Of a stretch of DNA of 64,000 bases, positions 981 to 17,539 are shown in pieces. Origin of the DNA: Stenotrophomonas maltophilia (GTDB lineage: Bacteria > Pseudomonadota > Gammaproteobacteria > Xanthomonadales > Xanthomonadaceae); NCBI RefSeq assembly GCF_003205835.1, contig NZ_CP029773.1:2264501-2328500 (forward strand). Direction: 5' to 3'. Below the pieces are notes generated by a model. That model did no database searches, was not told where the DNA came from, and saw only the letters and a list, made by a program, of their open reading frames with translations. The stretch's first letter is position 1. Every line of letters begins with the position of its first letter. A program made the translations under genes and the position numbers.

Positions 981-1061
981 CTTATCTCTTCCGACTCTGG
1001 CACCTTAGGTGCCGAGAGCCCGGCGCGGACGACCGTTCGGCTCTAGGTCTTTTCGATCGCT

Positions 1062-1070
1062 CTGTAGCAA
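1062..1070 (+). repeat. Left subterminal inverted repeat of the IS
   Basis: CTGTAGCAA is the exact reverse complement of 2114-2122. It sits about 120 bases before the transposase start, so the longer non-coding flank of this element is the 5' one. Confidence 0.7.
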
Positions 1071-2105
<1,035 letters not shown>

Positions 2106-6307: not shown

Positions 6308-6358
6308 GTCACACGGCGGGGCGACGTGCGCGTCGCCCTGCCAGCAAGGAGAACGAGC

Positions 6359-7405
6359 ATGAACATCGCGTCCCGTCTGCGCCTGTGCGCACTTCCGTTG
6401 GCTGTCTCGCTGGCACTGGCTGCCTGTGGCGGTTCATCGACGCCCTCGGACACCGGCAAGCCGGCTGGGCCTGCCGCCGCGACCGCGGCTGACGAAGTTG
6501 CATTGCCGGCTGGCTGGCAGCGCGTGGCCGGCACCGATATGCCGGCCGTGCGCGACCAGAAGGCCGTGCTGCCGGCCAAGGTGCATTCCGATGACGGCGC
6601 CGACGTCGAGGTGGCCGATACCAGCCGCATCATCGCCGGTGGTGACGACGTGATCGCGGTGATCGAAGCGCTGGGACTGGACAAGCAGGTGTTCGCCGCG
6701 CCGACCAACACCACCACCCGGGCCGGCCTGGCCGCGCCGCACCAGTTCCTGTTCAACCGCACCACGGGCGTGGAAGGCGTGCTGAGCCTGAAGGGCTCGC
6801 TGTTCCTCGGCAACAGCCTGCGCCGCCATACCGAGCTGGCCAGGAAACTGCGCGAAGTGGGTGAACCGGCCGTGGTCATCGACGACCTGCAGCCAGCGCC
6901 GGACAAGGTGCGCAAGGTCGCCGCCGCACTAGGGCTGGCCGAGGCAGGGCAGGCGCTTGCCACGCAGGTGCAGCGTCAGCTCGACGAGGCTGCAGCGATT
7001 GGCAAGGGCCTGGGCCATGCGCCACGACTGATCCACGTCTCGGCCACCGGCGCCGGTGGCGCGCCGACCGTGGCCGGTGCTGACAGTGCGTCGGCGCAGC
7101 TGATCGCCCTGGCCGGCGGCGTCAACATCGGTACCGAAGCGGGAGTGAAGAACTACTCGCAGCTGAGCAATGAGGGCGTGGTCGCGGCGGCACCGGAGGT
7201 GATCCTGGTGACCGAGCATGACCTGCAGTTGTTCGGCGGCGCCGAGGGCCTGTGGAAGTCCTACCCGACGCTGAAGCAGACCCCGGCCGGGCAGGCCAAC
7301 CGGGTCTGGGTGATGCCGGATGTGCAGCTGAAGTACACCAGTGTCGGCTCCGGTGCTGGCGCGCTGGCGCTGGCCAAGGCCCTGGCGGCGTTGCCGAAGG
7401 CATGA
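6359..7405 (+). CDS. hmuT: Heme ABC transporter substrate-binding lipoprotein HmuT
   Basis: ATG 6359 follows AAGGAG (6346-6351). The first 22 residues form a lipoprotein signal peptide with lipobox LAAC. The rest is a class III periplasmic binding protein of the HmuT/PhuT type: DTSRIIAGGDDVIAVIEALGL near the N-terminus, and the late block VVAAAPEVILVTEHDL. It would take heme or an iron chelate in the periplasm and hand it to the permease encoded next. Its stop overlaps the hmuU start by four bases (ATGA). Heme is the likely ligand by family; an iron-siderophore is the alternative. Confidence 0.87.
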   Translation: MNIASRLRLCALPLAVSLALAACGGSSTPSDTGKPAGPAAATAADEVALPAGWQRVAGTDMPAVRDQKAVLPAKVHSDDGADVEVADTSRIIAGGDDVIAVIEALGLDKQVFAAPTNTTTRAGLAAPHQFLFNRTTGVEGVLSLKGSLFLGNSLRRHTELARKLREVGEPAVVIDDLQPAPDKVRKVAAALGLAEAGQALATQVQRQLDEAAAIGKGLGHAPRLIHVSATGAGGAPTVAGADSASAQLIALAGGVNIGTEAGVKNYSQLSNEGVVAAAPEVILVTEHDLQLFGGAEGLWKSYPTLKQTPAGQANRVWVMPDVQLKYTSVGSGAGALALAKALAALPKA

Positions 7406-8445
7406 GTCCGGCGGATCGGCGCCGCCGTCGCGGGCGGACGATGTTGCTGGTGGCGTTGCTGGCACTGCTGGGGGCGGTGCTGGCTTCATTCGCCGTCGGC
7501 CCGCTGCGGCTGCCGCCGCTGGAGGTGGTGCAGGCGCTGGGTGTGAAGCTGGGACTGCTTGATCCGCAGGCGGTCAGCAGTCGTGACCTGGCCGTGGTCT
7601 GGCAGCTGCGCATTCCGCGCGCCCTGTTGGGCGCAATGGTTGGTGCCTCGCTGGCGATGGCCGGTGCCAGCCTGCAGGGATTGTTCGGCAACCCGCTGGC
7701 CGATCCCGGTATCGTCGGTGTCAGCCAGGGTGCTGCGCTGGGTGCGGTCGCTGCCATTGTTCTCGGCGCCGCGGGCGCTGCCGGCTGGCTGGTGCCGGTG
7801 GCCGCGTTCGCTGGCGGCGCACTGGCAATCGGCCTGACCTACGCCTTGGCCCGGCCCGGCAAGGGTACGGGCAACGCCACGCTGCTGCTGGTCGGCATCG
7901 CGATGGCCGCGTTCTGCTCGGCGTTGATCGGTTTCCTTACATACATCGCCAGCGAGAGCGAGCTGCAGTCGCTGGTGTTCTGGCAGATGGGCTCGCTGGC
8001 GCGCGCCAACTGGGCCGATGTAGCGGCCGTGGTGCCGTTGTTCGCCATCGGTGTATTCGCGCTGCAGCGACTGGCTACGCCGTTGGACATGCTGGCGTTG
8101 GGTGAGCGCCAGGCACAGCACCTCGGGCTGGATGTCACCCGCACGCGGCGTCGCCTGGTGGCGTTCAGTGCGCTGCTGGTGGGTGCGGCGGTGGCGTTTG
8201 CGGGCTCGATCAGCTTCGTCGGCCTGGTGGTGCCGCACGTGGCGCGCCTGCTGGTCGGCCCTGGTCATCGCTGGCTGCTGCCGTTGTCCGGGCTGCTCGG
8301 TGCGCTGCTGATCGTGGTGGCCGACACCGCCGCGCGCACATTGGATCCGCCGGCGGAGATTCCGCTGGGCCTGTTCTCGGCTGCGCTGGGCGCACCGTTC
8401 TTCCTCTGGCTGGTGCTGCAGCAGCGCCGCAAGGCCGCTCCATGA
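7402..8445 (+). CDS. hmuU: Heme ABC transporter permease HmuU (FecCD family)
   Basis: A 347-residue, strongly hydrophobic protein with the FecCD/BtuC signatures: RIPRALLGAMVGASLAMAGA, GNPLADPGIVGVSQGA, FVGLVVPHVARLLVGPGHR and, at the end, EIPLGLFSAALGAPFFLWLV. About ten membrane helices can be placed. It overlaps hmuT and hmuV by four bases at each end, so the three genes form one translationally coupled unit. Two copies of such a permease normally pair with two ATPases in the inner membrane. Confidence 0.9.
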   Translation: MSPADRRRRRGRTMLLVALLALLGAVLASFAVGPLRLPPLEVVQALGVKLGLLDPQAVSSRDLAVVWQLRIPRALLGAMVGASLAMAGASLQGLFGNPLADPGIVGVSQGAALGAVAAIVLGAAGAAGWLVPVAAFAGGALAIGLTYALARPGKGTGNATLLLVGIAMAAFCSALIGFLTYIASESELQSLVFWQMGSLARANWADVAAVVPLFAIGVFALQRLATPLDMLALGERQAQHLGLDVTRTRRRLVAFSALLVGAAVAFAGSISFVGLVVPHVARLLVGPGHRWLLPLSGLLGALLIVVADTAARTLDPPAEIPLGLFSAALGAPFFLWLVLQQRRKAAP

Positions 8446-9203
8446 GCGGGCTGTTGAAGCTGCACGAGGTGGTGGTGCGCCGCCAGCAGCGCGAGATCCT
8501 GCATGGCATCTCGCTGGCGTTCGAACCGGGTACGGTCACCGCGCTGGTGGGCCCGAATGGCGCGGGCAAGTCCACGTTGTTGGCGGTCGCCGCCGGTGAC
8601 CTGCGCGTTGACGCGGGCGAAGTCAGTCTGCTGGGCCGGCCGCTGGCCAGCTACAAGGCCGGACCACTGGCGCGCGAGCGCGCGGTGATGCCACAGGAGC
8701 ATGGCGTGCGTTTCGCCTTCAGCGTGGAGGAAGTGGTGGCGATGGGACGGTTGCCGCATCCGCCGGATCCGGTGGCGGACGACGCCCAGGTGGAAGCGGC
8801 GATCGATGCCGCCGAGCTGCAGGCGCTGCGCCTGCGTGAGGTGCAGCAGCTGTCCGGGGGCGAGTCCGCACGGACCACGTTCGCGCGCGTGCTGGCGCAG
8901 GACACGCCGCTGCTGTTGCTCGATGAACCGACCGCTGCGCTCGATCTGCGCCACCAGGAGCGCACGCTGCGCAGTGTGCGCTCCTGTGCCGAAGCGGGTG
9001 CGTGCGTGATCGTGGTGCTGCACGACCTGAATCTGGCCGCCGGCTATGCCGACCGCATCGTGCTGCTGGAGCAGGGCAGGGTGGCGGCAGACGGTACGCC
9101 GTTGCAGGTGCTGACCGAGGACAACCTGCACCGCGTGTACCAGCAGGATGTTGTGGTGCTGGAGCATCCACGGCGTGGGGTGCCGCTGGTGGTGGTCACG
9201 TGA
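8442..9203 (+). CDS. hmuV: Heme ABC transporter ATP-binding protein HmuV
   Basis: A 253-residue ABC ATPase. Walker A is GPNGAGKST (residues 37-45), the Q-loop is MPQEHGV, the signature is LSGGESAR, Walker B is LLLLDEPTAALD, and the switch histidine lies in VVLHDLNLAAGYADR. It matches the HmuV/BtuD branch that energises FecCD permeases. It is the last gene of the iron unit, and no clear terminator follows before the lipoprotein gene at 9311. Confidence 0.92.
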   Translation: MSGLLKLHEVVVRRQQREILHGISLAFEPGTVTALVGPNGAGKSTLLAVAAGDLRVDAGEVSLLGRPLASYKAGPLARERAVMPQEHGVRFAFSVEEVVAMGRLPHPPDPVADDAQVEAAIDAAELQALRLREVQQLSGGESARTTFARVLAQDTPLLLLDEPTAALDLRHQERTLRSVRSCAEAGACVIVVLHDLNLAAGYADRIVLLEQGRVAADGTPLQVLTEDNLHRVYQQDVVVLEHPRRGVPLVVVT

Positions 9204-10890: not shown

Positions 10891-10918
10891 TTGCGCGCCA
10901 GATTGGCAGGTCTAGAAT
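10891..10918 (+). promoter_or_regulatory. Sigma-70-like promoter of the EF-G paralogue leader
   Basis: TTGCGC (10891-10896) and TAGAAT (10913-10918) are separated by 16 bases. The start point would be near 10925, at or just before the ATG of the first small leader ORF at 10926. Confidence 0.5.
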
Positions 10919-10925
10919 GCGCCCC

Positions 10926-11015
10926 ATGAACCGGATGCCGCTCCTGAAGTTTTTCACCCTGACCCGCGCAAGCGCGGAACGGGCGTGTCTGCCTGGAGCC
11001 CCACGAGGCCGTTGA
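10926..11015 (+). CDS. Small leader ORF 1 (29 residues)
   Basis: ATG 10926 to TGA 11015 encodes MNRMPLLKFFTLTRASAER and ten more residues. It begins at the predicted transcription start, so it would be leaderless. Within it GGGCGTGTCTG (10981-10991) can pair with CAGAGCGCCC (11039-11048), which is the left arm of the terminator at 11041. That is the arrangement expected for a leader peptide that controls an attenuator. Translation has not been shown, and the call rests on position and pairing. Confidence 0.4.
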   Translation: MNRMPLLKFFTLTRASAERACLPGAPRGR

Positions 11016-11040
11016 AGCGGCCATCGCTGGACCTTCGACA

Positions 11041-11069
11041 GAGCGCCCTCCGGGGCGCTCTTTTCGTTT
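11041..11069 (+). terminator. Terminator/attenuator in the leader of the EF-G paralogue
   Basis: Perfect stem GAGCGCCC / GGGCGCTC (11041-11048 with 11053-11060), loop TCCG, then TTTTCGTTT. It lies inside the leader, about 140 bases before the EF-G start and downstream of the only good promoter, so read-through must be allowed for the gene to be expressed. Confidence 0.7.
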
Positions 11070-11117
11070 CCGCAATTCCATTTCCCGTAACCCGATGTAC
11101 CGCAAGGAGAACGTGCC

Positions 11118-11147
11118 ATGCACCAGATCGCCGAGACCGAACGCTAG
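11118..11147 (+). CDS. Small leader ORF 2 (MHQIAETER)
   Basis: A nine-codon ORF with a textbook ribosome site (AAGGAG 11104-11109, eight bases before ATG). Its stop codon touches the left arm of a ten-base stem (11148-11157 with 11170-11179). A second stem (GCCAAC 11162-11167 with GTTGGC 11188-11193, plus an inner GGGG/CCCC) excludes the first. A ribosome ending here would cover the first stem and favour the second. The strong ribosome site makes translation likely. Confidence 0.5.
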   Translation: MHQIAETER

Positions 11148-11211
11148 CCGCGCACCCTGTCGCCAACCGGGGTGTGCGGCCCCCGAAGTTGGCTTTGCAG
11201 GAACCTTCCTC

Positions 11212-13248
11212 ATGAACACCCAAGTCCTTTCCCGCCGTCGCAACCTTGGCATCATTGCCCACATCGACGCCGGCAAGACCACGTTGACCGAACGCCTGCT
11301 ATGGAGAAGCGGCGAGATCCACCGCGTCGGCGAAGTGCACGATGGCAACGCGACCACTGATTTCTCGGCGATCGAACGCGAACGTGGCATCACCATCGGC
11401 GCTGCTGCCGTACAGGCGCAGTGGGCGCCGCGCGACCTGCCGCCGCATCGGCTGACCCTGATCGACACTCCGGGCCACATCGACTTCGCCATTGAAGTCG
11501 AGCGTTCGCTGCGCGTGCTTGACGGTGCCGTGGCCGTGTTCTCGGCCGTGGATGGCGTGCAGCCGCAGTCTGAGACGGTGTGGCGCCAGGCGCGGCGTCA
11601 CCGCGTGCCGTTGATCGCCTTCGTCAACAAGATGGACCGCGTCGGCGCTTCGTTCGAGCGCGTGCTGGAGCAGCTGCAGGACAAGCTGCAGGCGCGGCCG
11701 TGGGCGCTGGGCGTGCCGCTGGGCAGCGAAAGCGACTTCGGCGGCTGGGTCGACCTGGTCGATGAGCGCGTACTGCACTGGCAGGACGGTGCTGCGACCG
11801 CGATCACGCCCTGGGACAACACGCTGCGCGCAACGTGGCAGTCGCGACGCGATGCGTTGGTCGAGGCCGTGGCCGACCACGACGAACTTCTGGCCGATGC
11901 CTGGCTGGAAGGTCGCGCGATCGATGCCGAACAGCTGCGCGCGGCGATCCGCCGGGCGACGCTGGCCGGTGCGGGCGTGCCGGTACTGGCCGGTGCGGCC
12001 TTCAAGGACAAGGGCATCGAGACGCTGCTGGATGCGGTGGTCGATTACCTGCCGTCGCCGCTGGATCGCCCTGCCGTGACCGCCGAAAGCGAGAGCGGCG
12101 AGGTGGTGTTGCCGCCGGATCCGGACGGTCCGCTGGCCGGTCTGCTGTTCAAGATCACCCACCAGCAGCACGGTGCGCTGAGCTTCGTGCGGCTGTACTC
12201 GGGCACGTTGAAGGTCGGCGATGCCGTGGCCAGTTCGCAGCATCCGCAGGGGCGGCGTGTCAGCCGCCTGGTGCGGGTGCAGGCCGACCAGACCCACGAC
12301 ATCGAGCAGGCCGTGGCCGGCGATATCGTCGCGGTGCTGGGCTGGAAGGATGCGGTCAGCGGTGAAACGCTGAGTGGGCGTGCGCAGCCGTTGCGCCTGG
12401 AGAGCATCCAGGCCCAGATGCCGGTGCTGGCCTGGCGGTTGGAACCGGCGCGTGCGGCCGACCTGATCCGGATGGCGCAGGGTCTGGCCAGCCTGGCCCA
12501 GGAAGATCCGTCGTTCCGCGTCGAAACCGATCGCGACACGGCGGAGACCCTGGTCTGGGGCATGGGCGAGCTGCACCTGGAGGTGATGGTCGAGCGCCTG
12601 CGCAGCGAATGGAAGGTCGATGTGGGCGTGGGTGCGCCGCGCGTGGCCTACCAGGAGACGCCGATGCGTGCGATGAACGGCGTCGTCGGGCGACTGGTCA
12701 AGCAGACCGGTGGCCAGGGCCAGTTCGCGCACGTGGTGCTGGATGTGTCGCCGCGCGAGGACGACCAGGTCGTGTTCAACGACCGCATCGTCGGTGGCGT
12801 GGTGCCGCGCAGCTTCATCGCGGCGGTGGAGAAGGGCGTGCGTGCCGCGCTGTCGGAAGGTCCGCAGGGCCATCCGGTGGTCGGCATCGAGGTCAGTCTT
12901 GTCGATGGCCAGACCCATGCCAAGGACTCCTCGGAGATGGCGTTCCATCGCGCAGGCGCCGAGGCGATCAAGGCGGCGCTGGCCGAGGGTGGCACGCAGC
13001 TGCTGGAACCGGTGATGGCGGTGACGGTGCATTCGCCGTCAGCGTCGGTGGGTGATGTGGTCGGCGACCTCAATCGACGCCACGGCCGTATTGCCCGCAT
13101 CGAGGACCAGGACGGTCGTGCCGAGGTCAGTGGTTTCGCACCACTGGCGCAGCTGGTGGGTTACACCACCTCGCTGCGTTCGCTCAGCCAGGGGCGGGCC
13201 AGCAGTGAGGCGCACCTGCACGGCTACGAGCCGGTACGCGCTGCATGA
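11212..13248 (+). CDS. fusA: Elongation factor G family translational GTPase (EF-G paralogue)
   Basis: The 678-residue protein has all G motifs: G1 AHIDAGKTT (16-24), G2 RGITI, G3 DTPGH (85-89) and G4 NKMD (139-142). EF-G domains II to V follow, with the domain IV stretch QTGGQGQFAHV and domain V near LLEPVMAVTVHSP. It is shorter than housekeeping EF-G (about 700). It stands alone rather than in the str operon beside rpsL, rpsG and tuf, so it is probably a second EF-G or a ribosome-rescue or protection type GTPase. AGGAA lies eight bases before ATG 11212. The leader with two small ORFs and an attenuator suggests control by translation state. Confidence 0.85.
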   Translation: MNTQVLSRRRNLGIIAHIDAGKTTLTERLLWRSGEIHRVGEVHDGNATTDFSAIERERGITIGAAAVQAQWAPRDLPPHRLTLIDTPGHIDFAIEVERSLRVLDGAVAVFSAVDGVQPQSETVWRQARRHRVPLIAFVNKMDRVGASFERVLEQLQDKLQARPWALGVPLGSESDFGGWVDLVDERVLHWQDGAATAITPWDNTLRATWQSRRDALVEAVADHDELLADAWLEGRAIDAEQLRAAIRRATLAGAGVPVLAGAAFKDKGIETLLDAVVDYLPSPLDRPAVTAESESGEVVLPPDPDGPLAGLLFKITHQQHGALSFVRLYSGTLKVGDAVASSQHPQGRRVSRLVRVQADQTHDIEQAVAGDIVAVLGWKDAVSGETLSGRAQPLRLESIQAQMPVLAWRLEPARAADLIRMAQGLASLAQEDPSFRVETDRDTAETLVWGMGELHLEVMVERLRSEWKVDVGVGAPRVAYQETPMRAMNGVVGRLVKQTGGQGQFAHVVLDVSPREDDQVVFNDRIVGGVVPRSFIAAVEKGVRAALSEGPQGHPVVGIEVSLVDGQTHAKDSSEMAFHRAGAEAIKAALAEGGTQLLEPVMAVTVHSPSASVGDVVGDLNRRHGRIARIEDQDGRAEVSGFAPLAQLVGYTTSLRSLSQGRASSEAHLHGYEPVRAA

Positions 13249-13258
13249 AGAAGGTGAG

Positions 13259-13288
13259 GGGAGCCCGTTCGCGGGCTCCCTTTTTTTT
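13259..13288 (+). terminator. Strong rho-independent terminator after the EF-G paralogue
   Basis: Nine-base perfect stem GGGAGCCCG / CGGGCTCCC with loop TTCG, followed by eight T residues (13281-13288). Confidence 0.9.
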
Positions 13289-14588: not shown

Positions 14589-16916
14589 TCAGTCAGAGCG
14601 CATGGCGTCCGCAATGCGGGAGCCATGCCAGTGCTGCAGCAGCTGCAGCAAGCGCCGCACATCGGCCCAGTCGGGTGCGGCGTCGTTTCCCAGCGCCCAC
14701 AGGTCGGACGCGATTCCGGCCTGATCGGTTGCGCAACAGAATTGCAGCGTACCCTGCAGGCGATGTGCGTGATGACGCAGCGCCGTGGCATCGTAGTCCT
14801 CCGCGGCCTGCTCGATGCCCAGCAGCTCGCCGTTGATGTCGGCCAGATAGGCCTGATCCAGCGGCGCGACGGTGTCGACGGTCGTAGCCCCTGCCGCTGG
14901 CGGCAGCTCCAGTGCCTGCAGCAGTTGTCCGATCTGCAGGGGCTTGGTCAGGACTGCATGGAAGCCTGCATTGCGGCAACGCGTCGCGTGCCTGCGTCCT
15001 GTCCGGGCTGACAGCGCAATCAGTCGCGGCGGTTCCCCGGGCTGGTTGCGCAGTTGCTGCGCCAGCGCGTAGCCATCCATGCCCTGCAGGCCGATGTCCA
15101 CCAGCACGATCCGTCGCGGGGTCTGCGCTTGCTCGGCAAGGGCATCGTCAGCGTCGGCCAGGGCGCGGACCTCGGCCCCAAGGCGGCGCAGTTGTTCGGC
15201 GATGATCTGGCGATTCATCGCGTGATCATCGACCAGCAACAGATCCAGGCCGGCAAGCGGAAGGCCGAGGCGTGTCTGTTCCGCTGGCGGCAAGTCGGAT
15301 CTTGCAGCCTGCACCGGCAAGCGCAGGGTAAACCGGCTGCCGCGACCCGGCACACTGTGCAGTGTCAGCGTGCCACGCATGGCGTGGGCCAGTTCGCGGG
15401 CGATCGCCAGGCCCAATCCGCTGCCGCCGCGCGCCTGCCCGTCCTTGCCTTGCTGGAACGGCTGGAACAATCGTGCAGCCTGGCGGGCATCGATGCCGAT
15501 GCCGCTGTCGATCACATCGAGCAGCAGCTCCTGGGGATCGGCGGCTGGCCTCAGTTGTATGCGCAGATCGATCCCGCCGATATCGGTGAACTTCACTGCG
15601 TTGGCCAGCAGGTTGTCGACAATCTGGCGCAGTCCCTCGGGGTCGAGAGCGACGGCGGATGCCTGGTCCGCCGTGCCTTCGAAGCGCAGTTCGAGTCCTT
15701 TCAGCAGTGCCTGTGGGCGGACTGCGTCCAACGATTGGCGGCAGAGCAGGAACACATCGCAGGCCTGTGCGCGGGGCGTGAATCCTCCTTCGGCCAAGCG
15801 CGCGAACTCCAGTGAGCGATTCAACATGCCGCGCAGCGCATGGCCTGCGGCTTTGGCGGCGGCAAGCAGTTCGCGTTGCGCCTTGGGCGCGGGCGATTGA
15901 CTGAGCAGGTCGATCGAGGCCAGCACCACCTGGGCCGAATTGCGTATCTCGTGGCTGATCACACCCGCTGCGCGTGTCTGCTTGCGCCGCTCACGTCCGT
16001 GTTGCTGGTGCAGCGAAAGCCAGAACACGGGAAGGCCGGCCAGCAGTGCCAGCACTGCCAACAGCCAGATCGGGGGCGGCGTGCGCAGCCAGTCCAGCGC
16101 CTTTCCAACCGGAGCCGGCAGTATCTGCCAGGCCCAGAGCTGCAGCAGGCCGGCATGCTCTTCCAGTGTGATGTCCTGCAGGGCCTGGTCGATGCGCGCC
16201 AGCAGTTGCCGGTCCTCGCGGCGTACCAGCAGGCGCAGGTCGGTGGAGAGTCCGATCTCGAATGGCTGCACCTGCAGCTGGCCGGCGAAGTACTGCCGGA
16301 TCATCGGTTGCAGTGTGGTCTCCACGCCTATCGCGACATCGGCCATGCCGGCCTCGACCGCGGCCAATGTGGCATGCCGGTCAGGCAGGTACAGCAGTGG
16401 AACCTGCGGATGATGGGCGTCCAGCCATCCGGCATAGGGCCCGCCGTTGACCACCGCAACCGTTCGGCCATCCAGTTGCGCGATGTCATGCGGCAAGCGC
16501 TCATCCACGCGGCCGGCCAGCATGGTCCTGCCACCTCGGAAAGGTGCAGAGGCCACCAGATGGGGGCAGGACGGCGGCAGATGCCTGGCCGCCCCGACCA
16601 CCAGTACCAGGTCGGCGTCGCCACGGCATACGGCGCTCACCGATGTGCCGGTGCTGGGGTAGGGGTGCTCCTTGAACTGGAGTCCGGAATGTCGCGCCAC
16701 GAGATCGGCGTAGCCGTGGGCGAGGGTGGGCAGCGGCGCCGTGCCCGCAAGGTCTGCGGGCAATGGGCGCAGCGAGGGTGCGGTGGCGACGCGGACCTCG
16801 CGACCGGGCAGCCATCGTTGTGACTGCGCGTCCTCGGCCGAAGCGGCCGGCAGCAGAAGCAGGGCCAGCAGCAGGAGGAGGGAGCCCTGCCGGCGAGGGT
16901 GGTCGCGCCGCGTCAC
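14589..16916 (-). CDS. BvgS-like hybrid sensor histidine kinase
   Basis: A 775-residue protein with a signal peptide and a periplasmic solute-binding-type sensor (about 30-265). A membrane helix (282-302) follows, then HisKA with H322 in SHEIRN, HATPase with N-box DNLLANAVKFTD and the SGLGLAI lid, and a receiver with D607 and K658. The last domain is an Hpt-type domain with H718 (HAHRLQG). This is the BvgS plan with one sensor domain and no PAS domain, passing phosphate H-D-H and then to the partner regulator. Its start overlaps the regulator's stop by four bases, so the two are co-translated. The ligand is unknown. Confidence 0.88.
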   Translation of the reverse strand: MTRRDHPRRQGSLLLLLALLLLPAASAEDAQSQRWLPGREVRVATAPSLRPLPADLAGTAPLPTLAHGYADLVARHSGLQFKEHPYPSTGTSVSAVCRGDADLVLVVGAARHLPPSCPHLVASAPFRGGRTMLAGRVDERLPHDIAQLDGRTVAVVNGGPYAGWLDAHHPQVPLLYLPDRHATLAAVEAGMADVAIGVETTLQPMIRQYFAGQLQVQPFEIGLSTDLRLLVRREDRQLLARIDQALQDITLEEHAGLLQLWAWQILPAPVGKALDWLRTPPPIWLLAVLALLAGLPVFWLSLHQQHGRERRKQTRAAGVISHEIRNSAQVVLASIDLLSQSPAPKAQRELLAAAKAAGHALRGMLNRSLEFARLAEGGFTPRAQACDVFLLCRQSLDAVRPQALLKGLELRFEGTADQASAVALDPEGLRQIVDNLLANAVKFTDIGGIDLRIQLRPAADPQELLLDVIDSGIGIDARQAARLFQPFQQGKDGQARGGSGLGLAIARELAHAMRGTLTLHSVPGRGSRFTLRLPVQAARSDLPPAEQTRLGLPLAGLDLLLVDDHAMNRQIIAEQLRRLGAEVRALADADDALAEQAQTPRRIVLVDIGLQGMDGYALAQQLRNQPGEPPRLIALSARTGRRHATRCRNAGFHAVLTKPLQIGQLLQALELPPAAGATTVDTVAPLDQAYLADINGELLGIEQAAEDYDATALRHHAHRLQGTLQFCCATDQAGIASDLWALGNDAAPDWADVRRLLQLLQHWHGSRIADAMRSD

Positions 16917-17539
16917 GGGGCGTCCTGTGGGCGCCGCATGGAATAGATTTCGGCATCGTTGCGCAGCCCGAGCTTGCGCAGGACCGCGATCTTCTGCGTG
17001 CTGACGGTCTTGACGCTGCGGTGACGGTGCAGCGCGATCTCGGAGACGGTCAGGCCAGCCAGCAGCAGGTTCAGCACTTCGCGCTCGTTGCGGCTGAGCT
17101 CACCACAGTCTGCCGGAATGGTGCGGTCGGGTGGCAGGCGCTCGAGCCCCTGCGACACACGGATGATCGCTTCGGACAGCATGGGCAGTGGCTCGGCCTT
17201 GCTGACGACACCGCCGATGCCGGCCTCCAGCAGGTGATGGAGATGGGTGGCGGGGGAGAGGGTGGCGAAGGCAAGCAGTGGCGTGCGTGGGAATGCGCTG
17301 CGCAGCAGGGGGATCAGCTCCGCGCTGCTGCGATCGTCGCGGGCCAGTGTCAGATCGATGATCGCGACATCCACCCGCGTCTTCTGCAGGGTCTGGATGA
17401 AGGCGTCACTGTGCCCGTGGCTGGCGATGATCCTGAAGCGGGCGTCCTGTGACAGGTGCAGGCCGGTGCCACGGCGGACGACTTCATGGTCGTCCAGGAG
17501 TGCCAGGCGCAGTCGGCGCGGTGCGGGATGTCCATTCAT
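16913..17539 (-). CDS. BvgA-like NarL/LuxR-type response regulator
   Basis: The 208-residue protein has an N-terminal receiver (acidic pair in LALLDDHE, phosphoacceptor D62 in IIDLTL) and a C-terminal LuxR helix-turn-helix (LSRNEREVLNLLLAGLTVSE, then the recognition helix around SVKTVSTQK). It is the partner of the hybrid kinase that begins within its stop codon. The receiver lysine is in VSKAE. A ten-base inverted repeat lies upstream at 17647-17683 and could be its own control site. Confidence 0.88.
   Translation of the reverse strand: MNGHPAPRRLRLALLDDHEVVRRGTGLHLSQDARFRIIASHGHSDAFIQTLQKTRVDVAIIDLTLARDDRSSAELIPLLRSAFPRTPLLAFATLSPATHLHHLLEAGIGGVVSKAEPLPMLSEAIIRVSQGLERLPPDRTIPADCGELSRNEREVLNLLLAGLTVSEIALHRHRSVKTVSTQKIAVLRKLGLRNDAEIYSMRRPQDAP

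Follow-up and report, generated by a model that had tools for sequence, protein, structure and literature searches.

A conserved two-module leader, probably a ribosome-reading switch, before an elongation factor G paralogue of Stenotrophomonas maltophilia and its relatives

Upstream of a second gene for elongation factor G (EF-G) in Stenotrophomonas maltophilia, here called EF-G2, we found a conserved leader that probably acts as a two-stage switch turning the gene on when ribosomes stall. The gene lies in a stretch of 64,000 nucleotides (the window, G000:C1:2264501-2328500) of a 4.89-Mb genome in a single contig. We describe the anatomy, the conservation and the compensatory changes of the leader, together with the predicted folding of its first stage. 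Two modules make up the leader (window 10926-11212; Table 1): module 1 holds a 29-codon open reading frame (ORF), ORF1, followed by an intrinsic terminator, and module 2 holds the nine-codon ORF2, followed by a pseudoknot. In the first stage, a ribosome translating ORF1 freely would cover a GGGYG strand within it, allowing the terminator to form and to halt RNA polymerase; with a ribosome held on the first ∼13 codons, this strand would instead be open to pairing with the left terminator arm, and read-through would follow. In the second stage, ribosomes would load onto the read-through mRNA at the strong ORF2 site, and the position of a ribosome at or near the ORF2 stop would likely set the state of the pseudoknot. 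As the pseudoknot separates that stop from the weaker EF-G2 site, EF-G2 translation would be coupled to ORF2. Stalling on this leader in living cells is what such a design would presumably respond to.

A first-pass annotation of the window had proposed a leader-ORF control of this kind, and every leader element that it named is found at the positions in Table 1. The comparison of orthologue leaders that it had suggested strongly supports leader-ORF control: the small ORFs are not lost in relatives but present in 125 (ORF1) and 124 (ORF2) of 125 leaders, and compensatory changes occur in stem 1 of the pseudoknot and at one pair each of antiterminator and terminator. These 125 distinct leaders come from three families of the order, identical stretches of 400 bases upstream being counted once; two more (L163 and L197) fell outside the pattern-based parse and, read by eye, contain both ORFs.

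ORF1 and the module 1 switch

ORF1 begins with ATG in all 125 leaders, comprises 28-36 codons and ends 25-36 bases 5' of the core of the left terminator arm. An ORF of this kind was present in each of the 114 leaders with a full 150-base window, compared with 451 of 4560 dinucleotide shuffles of the same windows (9.9%). The Xanthomonadaceae peptides keep Pro-Leu-Leu near the start and are leucine-rich around it. Luteibacter-type peptides typically carry Cys-Lys-His near the start and Ala-Arg-Arg-Gly-Cys-Ala-Arg later (for example MFRCKHDLMHVPPIAPWARRGCAR), and the peptide of L208 starts MTAVAPLILPIRLRVCAGRVRV. An alignment of 52 sequences (A3, hand-picked from 69 distinct ORF1 peptides to drop near copies) gave 51, 51 and 923 pairwise differences at the first, second and third positions of the Pro-Leu-Leu codons. 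Since this variation is almost all third-position, it points to coding selection on the ORF1 peptide at Pro-Leu-Leu, and ORF1 is predicted to be translated.

The first-pass annotation had also placed a promoter such that the transcript would start at the ATG of ORF1. The sequence is there and its -10 region is kept within Stenotrophomonas, a conservation that backs the predicted promoter; on the other hand, it matches the consensus at 8 of 12 positions, under the scan threshold, and the scan found no promoter. Other Stenotrophomonas have ∼20 extra bases between the -10 box and the ATG of ORF1, so that a transcript start at this ATG is likely peculiar to the S. maltophilia group.

The claim that a strand inside the 29-codon ORF pairs with the left arm of the terminator was borne out, the GGGCG segment of ORF1 providing the pairing in the window. 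The terminator is the sole scan match in the region, shuffles of which average 0.8 such sites, and hairpin A, immediately before the antiterminator strand, is more stable than in shuffles (mean -10.8 versus -6.1 kcal/mol, 112 leaders). Across the 52 aligned sequences, the six core pairs of the antiterminator were paired in 99.0% of cells and the six of the terminator in 99.7%. The fourth antiterminator pair is U-A in 28 sequences, C-G in 20 and U-G in two; this is the one pair of six with a both-sided change (20 of 52 sequences), and the covariation score of the antiterminator was reached by none of 500 shuffles. The terminator likewise has a single pair of this kind, with both partners altered in 24 of the 52. 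Judged from the alignment, terminator and antiterminator are predicted to be mutually exclusive through their common left arm, both pairings being kept in at least 99% of cells.

The effect of a ribosome was modelled on the leader up to the end of the left terminator arm, with a footprint of assumed size forced unpaired and without co-transcriptional kinetics. In this model the position of the ribosome is predicted to toggle module 1, clearly in 99 Xanthomonadaceae-type leaders and more weakly in 15 of Luteibacter type. In the former, a ribosome on codons 1-13 gave the antiterminator a mean probability of 0.89-0.98; this dropped to 0.65 at codon 14 and 0.22 at codon 15, did not exceed 0.10 over codons 16-25 and came to 0.14-0.22 over codons 26-29. 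A shuffled control, its ribosome at codon 5, gave 0.20. Ribosome-mediated transcription attenuation is the most likely function of module 1.

ORF2, the pseudoknot and the occurrence of both modules

As the first-pass annotation had stated, a nine-codon ORF (MHQIAETER) follows the terminator; its ribosome site is perfect, and its stop borders directly on a stem. The pattern search that recovered ORF2 elsewhere contained part of the ribosome site (GGAG or GAG). ORF2 is nine codons long in 96 of the 124 leaders; of the others, 23 have 14 codons, two have 22, two have 10 and one has seven. Position six is acidic in 43 of 46 distinct ORF2 sequences, and 43 of the 46 carry Thr or Pro at position seven. 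All 104 leaders compared (those whose EF-G2 start fitted the start pattern, L168 being left out) have a stronger ribosome site at ORF2 than at EF-G2, the strength of the former coming partly from selection by the search pattern; at EF-G2, 51 of the 104 have a site weaker than -4 kcal/mol.

Stem 1 and stem 2 were aligned over 70 sequences (A1, hand-picked from 95 distinct ones to drop near copies). Stem 1 was paired in 95.3% of cells, with both-sided changes at six of its ten pairs, and stem 2 in 99.8%, nearly invariant; for the pseudoknot as a whole, 97.0% of cells were paired, 60 were changed on both sides and the covariation was reached by none of 500 shuffles. The GTTGGC arm of stem 2 ends 18 bases 5' of the EF-G2 start. 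In all 14 Luteibacter-type leaders aligned (A2, 14 of 15, L208 left out), a different 9-base-pair pairing, invariant there, replaces stem 2, and the whole structure is paired in 93.8% of cells; in L208, a 10-base-pair pairing stands in its place (by eye). Module 2 thus keeps its topology while its sequence changes: the loop of a stem pairs with a segment further downstream, beside the ribosome site. The first-pass annotation had taken the two stems to be mutually exclusive; stem 2, however, uses the loop of stem 1, so that they need not exclude each other and are better described as a pseudoknot.

With an often weak EF-G2 site, a strong ORF2 site and the pseudoknot between them, translational coupling of EF-G2 to ORF2 is suggested, and we hold it with less confidence than the attenuation by module 1. 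In several genomes (L037, L118, L123), palindromic GTCGAC-type repeats are inserted between the terminator and ORF2, and the spacing between the two modules therefore seems free; we take these to resemble the GTAG/SMAG repeats of Stenotrophomonas.

Table 1. Features of the EF-G2 leader and gene (window positions)
Feature	Position	Strand	Details and basis
Predicted promoter	10891..10918	+	-35 TTGCGC 10891-10896, 16-base spacer, -10 TAGAAT 10913-10918
ORF1	10926..11015	+	ATG 10926-10928, stop 11013-11015; 29 codons; peptide MNRMPLLKFFTLTRASAERACLPGAPRGR
Hairpin A	10964..10977	+	within ORF1, immediately 5' of antiterminator strand; folding versus shuffles
Antiterminator strand	10981..10991	+	GGGCGTGTCTG, within ORF1; can pair with 11039-11048
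Intrinsic terminator	11040..11061	+	terminator scan; left arm 11040-11048 common to antiterminator
ORF2	11104..11147	+	AAGGAG 11104-11109; ATG 11118-11120 to TAG 11145-11147; MHQIAETER, nine codons
Stem 1	11148..11179	+	11148-11157 with 11170-11179, 10 pairs; directly 3' of ORF2 stop
Stem 2	11162..11193	+	GCCAAC 11162-11167 (stem 1 loop) with GTTGGC 11188-11193; pseudoknot topology
EF-G2 ribosome site and start	11199..11214	+	AGGAA 11199-11203, ATG at 11212
EF-G2 (EF-G paralogue)	11212..13248	+	678 residues, all five EF-G domains; NCBIfam EF-G 741.9 bits and Pfam domains
Inverted repeat and T run	13259..13288	+	3' of EF-G2; read from sequence

Covariance models of both modules indicate how narrowly the leader occurs. 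Either model finds one true copy in the genome that contains the window, the second match reaching E 0.28 for module 2 and 0.26 for module 1. In 200 genomes of the order, the module 2 model gave 19 matches, 17 of them at EF-G2; the two weakest (G417, G418) lie in regions of other genes, without the motif. For module 1, searched in 151 genomes, 19 of the 30 matches listed are at EF-G2, including the 15 best. Seven of the other 11 were inspected (L286, L291, L293-L296, L298) and looked like generic terminators or matches within genes; L292, L297, L299 and L300 were outside this inspection, L299 and L300 overlapping inspected places. The many-genome searches used stricter filters, at the loss of weak matches. 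Because confident matches of both modules occur only before EF-G2 in the genomes searched, the leader appears dedicated to this gene.

Rfam 15 has no family at its curated cut-off in the leader, sX15 elsewhere in the window being the sole match at that level. Two weak resemblances (28.4 bits against a cut-off of 46, and 25.5 against 47), centred on the terminator and the hairpin preceding it, were set aside as chance. Among open-licence papers we found none joining Stenotrophomonas, elongation factor G and a leader peptide, and none of the best literature matches listed describes the EF-G2 leader; in two S. maltophilia transcriptome papers, the term turned up in a single table row on an elongation factor G, all other mentions being of GreA.

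Counter-evidence and other explanations

Several observations weigh against the two-stage switch. For module 1, a single pair changed on both sides was reached by 429 of 500 shuffles of the antiterminator and 419 of 500 of the terminator, and few events may underlie the covarying pair, since the change splits the sequences by clade. The Luteibacter-type leaders show a weaker and bumpier profile, with antiterminator probabilities of 0.07-0.71 over codons 1-15 (0.26-0.66 at codons 1-7, 0.07 at codon 10, 0.71 at codon 15, then at most 0.19). Without any ribosome the antiterminator had a mean probability of 0.74 and exceeded 0.5 in 88 of 114 leaders, so that failure to initiate would be expected to cause read-through in most species too, and stage 1 may sense missing translation instead of one particular stall. 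With a ribosome on the ORF1 stop, the antiterminator stayed above 0.5 in 49 of the 114, which means that termination must precede the departure of that ribosome. Besides, no ribosome site for ORF1 is visible by eye in the S. maltophilia group and several relatives. Of the 125 ORF1 peptides, 111 contain Arg-x-Arg, a kind of motif associated with macrolide-dependent stalling, mostly towards the end, at positions where a halted ribosome would promote termination. As to module 2, the stop of ORF2 lies within or past the stem where the ORF has 14 codons (23 of 124 leaders) or 22 (two of 124), stem 2 is almost without variation inside each family, and one leader (L218, G551:C1:2389092-2389991) keeps module 1 and lacks module 2, its EF-G2 start following shortly past the terminator. 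To these must be added the accessibility of the EF-G2 ribosome site, which shows no consistent change over 109 leaders (L168 left out) with a ribosome on ORF2.

The latter result bears on a different account of module 2, translational attenuation of the erm or tet(Q) type, in which stem 1 and an extended stem 2 would compete, one of them hiding the EF-G2 ribosome site until a ribosome stalled on ORF2 freed it. Stem 1 does adjoin the ORF2 stop and stem 2 does use the loop of stem 1; moreover, a ribosome on the ORF2 stop led to the extended stem-2 hairpin in several of seven folded leaders, and in 59 of the 109 leaders one at codon 9 cut the cost of opening the EF-G2 site by over 0.5 kcal/mol. 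However, the same position raised this cost by more than 0.5 kcal/mol in 28, and at codon 8 it rose in 49 leaders and fell in 24, a mixed rather than flatly negative outcome of nested folds, in which pseudoknots are not representable. The inner helix of the extended hairpin competing with stem 1 was no better than in shuffles (mean z -0.07, 62 leaders), and the ribosome site lies in neither arm of stem 2. We regard attenuation of this type as rather unlikely. Of the tet(M)/erm-type control put forward by the first-pass annotation, the tet(M)/ermK logic fits the module 1 folds, whereas the erm-like part found no consistent support in module 2.

Three further explanations carry low probability in our view. 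It is quite improbable that the stretch 10926-11061 serves chiefly as a small regulatory RNA ending in a terminator of its own, EF-G2 being reached by occasional read-through or from another promoter: the predicted promoter and the terminator do bound ∼135 bases, and there are the two sub-threshold Rfam resemblances, but these centre on the terminator hairpin and the one before it, and what is conserved is the ORF and the antiterminator, with confident matches only before EF-G2. The strong conservation of stems 1 and 2 would suit a pseudoknot bound by EF-G2 itself or by a ribosomal protein in an autoregulatory manner, with ORF2 incidental; yet ORF2 is conserved too, in its nine codons (96 of 124) as well as its acidic sixth residue (43 of 46 distinct sequences), and we give this account a slender chance. 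Hardly credible, finally, is a leucine-supply attenuator in which ORF1 would sense charged leucine tRNA. The leucine-rich surroundings of Pro-Leu-Leu in Xanthomonadaceae would be as expected, but the controlled gene encodes a translation factor and no leucine gene, and leucine attenuation was rejected because Luteibacter-type ORF1, as in MFRCKHDLMHVPPIAPWARRGCAR, has no leucine run.

The EF-G2 protein, its relatives and comparable systems

EF-G2 shares 46% identity with the other EF-G of the same genome (C1:843318). Its GTPase motifs are intact, RGITI and DTPGH being present, and domain IV is complete. It fails the models of tetracycline ribosomal protection proteins (tet_protect 374.3 bits against a cut-off of 775; Tet(M) 207 against 1420). 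EF-G duplicates have been split into four subfamilies, of which EFG II lacks the RGITI motif (PMC3150367); EF-G2, which has this motif, therefore stands outside EFG II. The text of that paper contains no occurrence of Stenotrophomonas, Xanthomonas or Streptomyces.

Orthologues of EF-G2 (74-100% identity, E = 0) occur in 69 of 91 Stenotrophomonas genomes; the gene is patchy in the genus, the best match in the other 22 being an ordinary EF-G or weaker. Sampling across the family found it, at E <= 1e-200, in 52 of 297 genomes (six of 54 genera), and sampling across the order in 42 of 299 (six of 85 genera); named carriers include Lysobacter enzymogenes, Tahibacter soli and Luteibacter species. 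When 39 EF-G proteins were placed in a tree, a branch with support of 100/99 parted 12 proteins (eight EF-G2 of the order, one from Massilia and three actinobacterial) from 27 others, taken as ordinary EF-G. The grouping with the actinobacterial proteins is provisional, because Massilia forms a long branch and the tree holds no ordinary actinobacterial EF-G; a class-wide search for further genes of the Massilia type mostly returned matches near 50% identity, taken as ordinary EF-G. Read by eye, the Massilia gene (L054) is preceded by a leader ORF starting MNSMDILFFTF, a terminator and a second short ORF, and two Streptomyces genes and one of Kribbella (L086, L094, L115) have a common leader ORF with RYEVILVS or RYDVILVS. 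In L086, the leader ORF is followed by a long GC-rich inverted repeat (by eye).

Among known systems, module 1 is closest to the ribosome-mediated transcription attenuators, under which tet(M), ermK, lmo0919 and mef/mel are listed (PMC5418344), and to the control of the ribosome factor HflXr by a 14-residue leader ORF and a terminator (PMC6310831). Like these, the EF-G2 leader combines an ORF, an antiterminator and an intrinsic terminator, with slowed translation predicted to favour read-through, and the products are akin as well, the tet(M) product being another EF-G relative and HflXr another ribosome factor. Unlike tet(M), EF-G2 is no Tet protein (374 bits against the cut-off of 775), and unlike in macrolide leaders, their Arg-Leu-Arg motif appears in just one of 125 ORF1 peptides. 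The EF-G2 leader also differs from the drug-resistance attenuators in adding a second ORF and a pseudoknot, and in being conserved over genera and three families.

For module 2, RepY-RepZ coupling of plasmid ColIb-P9 and its IncB and IncL/M relatives offers a parallel: there, a short ORF reportedly ends beside a stem whose loop pairs 5' of the next ribosome site, giving a pseudoknot. The same arrangement, an ORF2 stop beside a stem whose loop pairs just 5' of the EF-G2 site, is seen in Xanthomonadaceae, in Luteibacter-type leaders and in L208. Unlike the plasmid systems, the EF-G2 leader serves no plasmid replication gene and no inhibitory stem was found over the EF-G2 ribosome site; no search was made for an antisense RNA. 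In ermC and tet(Q), listed under translation attenuation (PMC5418344), a leader ORF with a strong ribosome site likewise precedes a translation-related gene, but the EF-G2 ribosome site is not consistently masked in nested folds.

The actinobacterial relatives invite a comparison with Streptomyces fusB (SCO6589), a chromosomal EF-G paralogue among the sets of paralogues that differ in their response to tetracycline and WblC (PMC7157823). The three actinobacterial EF-G2 relatives share this setting in having, besides their leader ORFs, GAAAWY boxes upstream (by eye) like those described there for WblC/WhiB7; SCO6589 itself is a candidate member of the clade only. Unlike the EF-G2 leader, control there is by a transcription factor. 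On a broader view, which we offer as a speculation with the odds against it, the full-length EF-G paralogues of this clade, spanning Proteobacteria and Actinobacteria, might be stress translocases under leader-peptide control, and the Xanthomonadales leader might work as a two-key lock, in which a stall on ORF1 would allow transcription and the reaching of ORF2 would open the pseudoknot, so that EF-G2 would be made only when ribosomes are slowed yet still initiating.

Many bacteria carry spare EF-G copies, and the predicted ribosome-reading leader ties EF-G2 to translation stress, under which the protein presumably helps ribosomes. The conserved leader also names conditions to try for EF-G2: it suggests antibiotics, the inducers envisaged by the first-pass annotation, as a candidate signal only. 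If ribosome inhibitors do induce EF-G2, the protein may act in Stenotrophomonas, Lysobacter and relatives as a tolerance factor that has so far been overlooked, and the leader would be a ready reporter for ribosome-slowing drugs. Two ribosome sensors in series on one mRNA, acting on transcription and then on translation, would be an unusual design.

EF-G2 appears to be transcribed alone, its coding sequence being followed by an inverted repeat with a T run. The surroundings, assigned by eye, comprise a B12- or siderophore-type ATP-binding cassette transporter 5' of the leader (window 6326-9203; substrate-binding protein, permease and ATPase) and, at 14589-17539 on the reverse strand, genes for a hybrid sensor kinase and a LuxR-type regulator. 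The Xanthomonadaceae small RNA sX15 (RF02234, 150.1 bits) lies at window 1006-1165 on the reverse strand.

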